Positions 1,381-2,562 of a DNA stretch of 64,000 nucleotides are shown here, in pieces. The DNA is taken from IMG/VR virus record IMGVR_UViG_3300024054_000362, positions 1 through 64,000 of that record; one strand, written 5' to 3'. Numbering within the stretch: the first letter of the stretch is position 1; each line of letters begins with the position of its first letter. The translations under genes and the position numbers were made by a program. The notes beneath the pieces were generated by a model. The model was not told the DNA's origin and did no database searches. It saw only the letters and a list, made by a program, of their open reading frames with translations. Origin of the DNA: a virus.

Positions 1381-2562
1381 ATGACCAAGAACAAGAAGAA
1401 TAGCCCTACCGCCAATAGCCTCACCAAGCAGGTTCTTTCGGGCGCCACGGGCGCCGAGTCCAACGGCAACGGCAACGGCAACGGCAACGGCAACGGCAAC
1501 GGCAGGAGTGGTGGCGGTAAGAACGGCCGCCACGGTAGGAACGGCGGCAACGGCAAGGGCAAGAAGCGTACGCCGGCCGAGAAGGCGCGACTGCGCGCGC
1601 AGTTGTGTGCCGACTACGTCGACATCCGCATGTTTGGCGCCGTACCTGGCGGCGAGGGCGGTAGCGGAGCCGGCAAGATCCTCGGGCCGATCCACTTCGA
1701 GATCTCCGACTCGATCAACGTGGTCCATCTCTACCAGTCGACGATCACGCGCAATGCCATCGCCAACCACACGATGTCGCAGAGCAAGGACGCGAACCTC
1801 GCTATGGGCGTCAAGCACTGGGTCCAGTACGCACTCTTCTGTACGCGTATCGAGGTGGATGCGTATCCCGGCCGGATCACCGGGCTTACTCATGGCGATG
1901 TCGTACGGTTCTTCGAGAGCTGCATCAACATCTTCGCTCTCGACGCGTCGTCGGCTCGTCCCGAGATGAATGTGAGGAAGTTGATCATCGCGCGACACGC
2001 ATCGCCGCTCGGGAGTTATCCCAGGCCGGAACTCCGCGAGCACGTAATCAACATCCAGCAGCTGGTCCCGCATCCCCGGTCGTACGCGGATTTCAACGTC
2101 GTGATCAACACGACGCCGCCTGCCCCGACGATCGAGCTGTTCGAGGTCGAGCCGATGACGTTCGTCAACAGCAATCTCACGATGGCAGGGATTCTGAATT
2201 CGACGAGACAGGCGCCGATCCCGGACGATGCTCAGATCGACCACAAGTACACTGCGTGGCTGATCTGGGAGGCCGTCAAGTCGAACCCCAATGGCGACCC
2301 CGACAACGCCAACGCGCCGCGCATGAACAGTGTCACGGGGCAGTGCATCGTCATGGACGTCTGCCTCAAGCGCAAGGTTCGCAACTGGTTCACCAAGGCG
2401 CTGGGTTGTGACATCTTCGTCGCCGAGGAGGCCGTTCTGGAGGCTCAGGTCGAACGGTCCGCCGCGAGGCTCGGGCTGGCGCCGGAGGAGCCTGATCCGA
2501 GCGAGGACGTCGATATGGACGAGAGCGACTTGGATGCGGAGGCGTCGAGCGACGACGCCTAG
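1381..2562 (+). CDS. cas7c: Circularly permuted Cas7c (Csd2), crRNA-binding backbone of type I-C Cascade
   Basis: 393 residues. Both halves of Csd2 are present but in reversed order. Residues ~80-250 carry what is normally the C-terminal half: YVDIRMFGAV, GPIHFEISDSI, STITRNAI, MGVKHWVQYALF, INIFALDASSARPEM, ARHASPLGSYP and PRSYADFNVVI. Residues ~305-365 carry the normal N-terminal half: SNPNGDPDNANAPR, VMDVCLKRKVRNW and CDIFVAEEAVLEAQ. A new ~50-residue linker joins the old C- and N-termini. The new N-terminus has a Gly/Asn repeat and a Lys/Arg stretch; the new C-terminus is acidic. In Csd2 the NPNGDP...PR and VCLKRKVRN blocks form the RRM core. A clear ribosome site (GAGAAGGGAAAGAG) precedes ATG. 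All conserved blocks are intact, so it is probably functional. Confidence 0.9.
   Translation: MTKNKKNSPTANSLTKQVLSGATGAESNGNGNGNGNGNGNGRSGGGKNGRHGRNGGNGKGKKRTPAEKARLRAQLCADYVDIRMFGAVPGGEGGSGAGKILGPIHFEISDSINVVHLYQSTITRNAIANHTMSQSKDANLAMGVKHWVQYALFCTRIEVDAYPGRITGLTHGDVVRFFESCINIFALDASSARPEMNVRKLIIARHASPLGSYPRPELREHVINIQQLVPHPRSYADFNVVINTTPPAPTIELFEVEPMTFVNSNLTMAGILNSTRQAPIPDDAQIDHKYTAWLIWEAVKSNPNGDPDNANAPRMNSVTGQCIVMDVCLKRKVRNWFTKALGCDIFVAEEAVLEAQVERSAARLGLAPEEPDPSEDVDMDESDLDAEASSDDA
1462..1503 (+). repeat. 6-bp tandem repeat inside cas7c
   Basis: Seven perfect AACGGC units encode (Asn-Gly)n at the new N-terminus of the permuted Cas7c. Perfect identity suggests recent, slippage-driven change. 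Confidence 0.9.

Follow-up and report, generated by a model that had tools for sequence, protein, structure and literature searches.

Huge phages carry cleavage-poor variants of the type I-C CRISPR system that lack Cas1 and Cas2, have altered Cas5 active sites and have Cas3 replaced by another helicase (PMC7162821). The locus described here resembles these variants in being phage-borne, in its Cas5d-like Cas5 with an altered active site, in the absence of adaptation genes and in that silencing without cleavage is proposed; it differs in that Cas3 itself is retained, in an inactivated form. Its Cas7 is permuted, and the comparison with the huge-phage variant covers features other than the order of the Cas7 halves. 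As proposed for the present case, the nuclease-free systems type IV-A, Cas12m and type I CASTs reside on mobile elements and bind under RNA guidance while leaving the target uncleaved (PMC11519345, PMC11656645). These systems lack Cas3 or use other effectors, unlike this phage, and no permuted Cas7 is mentioned for them in the accessible parts of the two articles. One of these articles also remarks that recruitment of Cas proteins as inhibitors seems to be rare among viruses (PMC11656645).

The window, i.e. the whole stretch of DNA analysed (64,000 nucleotides), opens a virus record of 221,422 bases. Here we confirm that 1381-2562 encodes a Cas7c with circular permutation, within a type I-C locus carried by a phage. 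As in type I-C Cas7 (Csd2; PDB 7kha, 8g9s, 8dex), all profile positions occur once, the NPNGDPD, KRK.RN, DIR.FGAV and ITR motifs are present, and the gene adjoins cas5c, cas8c and an array. Unlike type I-C Cas7, the phage protein, at about 30-40% identity, has reversed halves, a 28-aa linker, a Gly/Asn/Lys N-tail and an acidic C-tail.

Order of the halves in the phage Cas7c

The cas7c (csd2) gene lies on the plus strand and encodes 393 aa, as judged from the ORF, phmmer, Pfam/NCBIfam and half-profiles. A Shine-Dalgarno-like stretch, GAGAAGGGAAAG, is found directly 5' of the first start codon of the frame. The protein begins with a new Gly/Asn/Lys-rich tail (residues 1-64, positions 1381-1572), which is located outside the profile matches and has a pLDDT below 50 over residues 1-58. 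It continues with the normally C-terminal part of Csd2 (residues ~65-257, 1573-2151; PF05107 76-248 and alignment of this part), a new linker leading from the old C-terminus to the old N-terminus (residues ~258-285, 2152-2235; outside both matches), the normally N-terminal part with NPNGDPD and KRKVRN (residues ~286-361, 2236-2463; PF05107 2-76 and alignment) and a new C-terminal tail of acidic composition (residues ~362-393, 2464-2559), all on the plus strand. The first-pass annotation had proposed a new linker and new tails, and both are present; the linker proper proved shorter, comprising only ~28 residues (258-285), because residues ~243-257 still align to the usual Csd2 C-terminus.

That all Csd2 blocks are present with the C-terminal half in front, as claimed in that annotation, was agreed by PDB search, Pfam/NCBIfam, half-profiles and a profile search over all six frames of the complete record. 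In the latter, PF05107 matched 1564-2106 with profile positions 76-248 and then 2245-2490 with positions 2-76. The matches run through the Pfam Cas7 profile a single time, so no conserved Cas7 part is missing from the permuted protein. The PF05107 score of 181.7 bits, against a cut-off of 33.2, places the protein in the Cas7c/Csd2 family; TIGR02589 gave 176.7 bits, slightly below its cut-off of 182.25, with the match broken into two. Using phmmer against PDB, residues 57-242 corresponded to Csd2 84-267 and residues 286-358 to Csd2 2-77 of 8g9s_B, and for D. vulgaris 7kha_B residues 68-248 corresponded to 102-283 and residues 286-371 to 4-93. Half-profiles made from six plasmid Csd2 proteins placed the C-part (E 2e-33) before the N-part (E 2e-16), i.e. 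opposite to the N-before-C order typical of Csd2; with each half aligned separately, the canonical order was not seen. Near-invariant Csd2 positions are retained in 55 of 92 cases, including the basic residues K330-R331-K332, R334, R83, R124 and K145. Antisense to cas7, a 511-aa open frame extends over window 1072-2607 on the minus strand and is probably a high-GC artefact. A reading of the protein as a split-intein or cyclised protein was rejected, the tails showing no intein motif by eye.

The window record starts inside the neighbouring cas8c, so that a contig end is nearby, and an assembly artefact could have exchanged the two halves of a normal cas7c gene. The junctions, however, are in frame and come with a new linker and new tails, and the six-frame search found neither a second Cas7 copy nor leftover Cas7 halves elsewhere in the 221-kb record. 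Moreover, a second assembly, G001 (IMGVR_UViG_3300044996_000468), spans the contig break, linking the record end to the record start via 5 extra bases. It has the same gene order and shows zero differences over window 1-8866, which covers cas7c and the array, bearing in mind that the two assemblies may share a sample. The first downstream difference is at 8867, and only two occur upstream (record 199975 and 215764), outside the cas genes. An exchange of halves during assembly is thus practically inconceivable, and neither chance nor local mis-assembly is tenable as the source of the half order; the first-pass annotation had named an assembly rearrangement as what would refute a phage-borne permuted gene. 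The phage genome is circular or circularly permuted, with a size of ~221.4 kb.

Several other features of the genome were recorded. At window 8753-9008, a 111-base tandem repeat (CPAGQHLFTFPWG units) has one more copy in G001 than in the window record, indicating a variable-copy protein. Thirteen tRNA genes, including five consecutive leucine tRNAs, are located at window 28645-33957 and 56295-59678. A DNA polymerase with a LAGLIDADG endonuclease insertion and a ribonucleotide reductase small subunit split by ~320 residues, at L009:1083-4835 and L009:8219-10198 (minus strand), each likely contain an intein. A phage ORF at L012:8313-9641 resembles ComM/YifB-type AAA proteins by eye. Rfam gave no match at window 1-10000.

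The Csd2 frames compared come from plasmids, from phage records, from IMG/VR and, for GTDB, from the 80 best of at least 573 matches, with some loci counted twice. All other frames in which both halves were separately placed (115/115) have N before C. Beyond these, two frames show a split C match with N before C and three contain the C-part alone; frames with C before N are copies of this phage only. IMG/VR scans with the whole protein, each half, Cas5c and Cas8c recovered the permuted form in the same phage only, and a scan with a phage-biased alignment yielded zero new contigs. The search for the same half order in other phages, as the first-pass annotation had suggested, was thus run and returned nothing but copies of this phage. 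Among the best 80 of at least 573 GTDB matches, all with a placed N-part are canonical, and since the best C-part match among them reaches at most 37% identity, they include no close bacterial relative, permuted or canonical. In trees, the locus groups with phage loci L031/L047 on very long branches, a placement which was given no weight. The literature searched, consisting of openly readable papers with most subscription papers outside, contained no permuted Cas7, in line with the first-pass annotation, to which no described permuted Csd2 was known; for circular permutation of CRISPR proteins, only HD domains were found in it.

Position of the cut and predicted fold

In a comparison of 98 canonical proteins, no interval of the family varies more in length than the one bounded by the positions that match residues 361 and 69 (0-97 residues, sd 17.5 vs 4.1 for the next). 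Insertions of 80-90 residues occur at this site in natural Cas7c proteins. Chain ends newly created in this loop should therefore disturb the fold least. The permuted Cas7c would keep the Csd2 fold, with the short linker bridging the old ends and the new ends placed in the insertion-tolerant loop. It probably arose by tandem duplication of cas7 followed by loss of the outer halves; a duplication intermediate was not seen among the sequences gathered.

Structure prediction had been put forward as a check. The AlphaFold2 model of the permuted protein is of low confidence (mean pLDDT 57, pTM 0.46; shallow alignment) and was obtained with a fragment alignment picked by random search over fragment sets, as MAFFT otherwise aligned the C-tail with the N-part. 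Structurally, the model is closest to type I-C Cas7 chains, across ~190 columns; this agrees with the C-part without demonstrating that the N-part closes the fold. A closed single fold is accordingly putative. The order C-part, linker, N-part also permits a domain-swapped backbone, in which each fold would be made up of the N-part of one Cas7 and the C-part of the adjacent copy and the subunits would interlock along the crRNA, and a 28-residue linker could in principle span to a neighbour. However, no observation demands such an arrangement, permuted proteins mostly close on themselves, and the model is too weak to decide; we regard swapping as very unlikely. The first-pass annotation had suggested that the permutation may change how neighbouring Cas7 copies are linked or spaced in the helical backbone, or may help to evade anti-CRISPRs directed at Cas7; both ideas are speculative.

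The operon and its CRISPR array

The 3' part of cas8c occupies 1-1296 (plus strand), and the 5' part is found at the other end of the record, since the window begins at the record start and the operon is split there, inside cas8c. Because the window cuts the operon, the features of the operon lay outside the first-pass annotation. G001 shows the join of the two parts; the whole cas8c (L001:7772/7904-9916) matches Cas_Csd1 with E 1.2e-58. In the same assembly, cas5c is located at L001:7279-7914 and a cas3 homologue at L001:4998-7151, the latter corresponding to L010:13793-15955 (record 217805-219958). The order cas3-cas5c-cas8c-cas7c-array is the usual one of type I-C. Adaptation genes were absent, with no Cas1, Cas2 or Cas4 in the whole record. 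Near-invariant positions are retained to 73% in Cas8c, 70% in Cas5c and 41% in Cas3. Near the cas operon, L001:3023-4054 encodes a protein which resembles PAPS reductases (weak Pfam match) and has an SGG loop; as a CysH-like protein is also carried by type IV-B CRISPR loci, this neighbourhood may be of interest.

Cas5c and Cas3 residues were compared against 45 homologues. A Cas5c lysine invariant in 45/45 homologues is Thr here (K120 to T), while Tyr30 is retained. The catalytic triad of Cas5c consists of Tyr46/Lys116/His117 (PMC3652601); assigned by position rather than by direct alignment, the Thr120 site is probably that of Lys116, and the complete catalytic Tyr/Lys/His set of type I-C was not found. 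With the invariant lysine lost, crRNA maturation lacks an explanation, which counts against the Cascade proposed below.

The CRISPR array (2742-6215, plus strand) comprises ~46 diverged repeats of ~36 nt, 38 of them distinct, with spacers of mostly 35-41 nt. The 3' handle is retained: the last 11-13 bases of the repeat are near-constant, a constancy which is partly built in, since the handle itself served to select the units. These last bases form the crRNA handle held by Cas5c and Cas7 in the D. vulgaris structure (PMC7684278). Handle matches number 42 in the 3.6-kb array region, and a single one lies in the remaining 60.6 kb of the window. Hairpin potential is retained in 35/46 repeats. Stem pairs are formed in 74.6% of cells vs 69% (maximum 72%) in shuffles, with frequent wobble or mismatched variants, and lend weak support to constraint. 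Spacer targets were not identified in phage, plasmid or own sequence. Two spacer seeds run against IMG/VR gave one 20-nt match, in a portal-like gene, which was judged to be chance in view of 15 mismatches across the other 18 nt and an adjoining AAGGA. The usual type I-C neighbouring motif is TTC.

Inactivated Cas3 and the proposed function

The Cas3 homologue is a 717-aa ORF, intact in both assemblies. Its Walker A motif (motif I) is changed from VPTGGGKT to APLGAFNV and motif II from DEAQ to VDAQ, and helicase motifs V and VI are lost. HD histidines are lost as well (HDxGK to SDIGK and, for the second, EHL to EDI), with HH122-123 and D183 still present; the ATPase and HD nuclease motifs of a type I-C Cas3 are thus not intact. 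Conserved positions are kept at 7/40 in the helicase motifs vs 49/99 in the rest of the protein (Fisher p 5e-4). The model is Cas3-like (pLDDT 78, pTM 0.85), with type I-C Cas3 8zns as best PDB match (TM 0.77). From these residues, the homologue appears catalytically dead though its predicted fold and length are kept. In a rough comparison with simple patterns, Cas3 of the other phage type I-C loci examined has mostly recognisable motifs. The loss of Cas3 motifs, the loss of the Cas5c lysine and the absence of Cas1, Cas2 and Cas4 bear on function more than the permutation does.

Degraded enzymatic sites, diverged repeats (38 distinct/46), missing adaptation genes and long tree branches are what a decaying remnant would display, its catalysis lost and the permutation being neutral debris. 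We consider decay quite unlikely, however, as the four long cas ORFs are free of stops in both assemblies, conserved non-catalytic positions are retained far better than catalytic ones, the third-position GC of cas7 is 0.84 vs a mean of 0.71 of large phage ORFs, and handle and hairpin are retained.

Operon, conserved residues and conserved crRNA handle together suggest that copies of the permuted Cas7c assemble along crRNA of the neighbouring array and form a type I-C Cascade with the phage Cas5c and Cas8c. With the ATPase/helicase motifs and HD-nuclease ligands gone from the Cas3 homologue, a recognised target would not be shredded but stably bound, so that a gene of a competitor or of the host could be neither transcribed nor replicated normally. 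We see an even chance that the permuted Cas7c, with a Csd2 fold, acts in a phage Cascade binding crRNA-specified DNA without shredding it. It is a tentative idea, rated a little lower, that a complete type I-C system was turned into a cleavage-free RNA-guided DNA binder, with a permuted Cas7 backbone and the dead Cas3 as a structural part. Against binding by such a Cascade stand the lack of an identified spacer target and the unusually diverged repeats, which fit decay too.

The main rival is that the phage sabotages a type I-C system of its host, a reading which sequence cannot separate from binding without degradation. Phage Cas subunits, dead Cas3 and/or repeat RNA would act as a dominant-negative anti-CRISPR, poisoning the host system so that the phage escapes immunity. 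An inactive Cas3 and an impaired Cas5c with intact folds suit a decoy, phage repeat RNAs inhibit host type I-C (RacrIC1, PMC10651486), and sequestration of crRNAs has been suggested for a phage Cas9 whose RuvC is inactivated (PMC11656645). A decoy, however, would not need an array of 46 units whose spacers are mostly regular in length, and mixing with a host complex is doubtful because the phage Cas proteins share only ~20-40% identity with the type I-C proteins that were found. Such poisoning is therefore, in our view, unlikely.

An inactive phage Cas3 bears on the remark on viral recruitment of Cas proteins as inhibitors (PMC11656645), and its retention allows a direct test of whether phages silence rather than destroy with type I systems. 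The permuted Cas7c itself suggests that one loop of the backbone subunit can accommodate new chain ends, a property that would help in designing Cascade fusions and informs Cas7 evolution.
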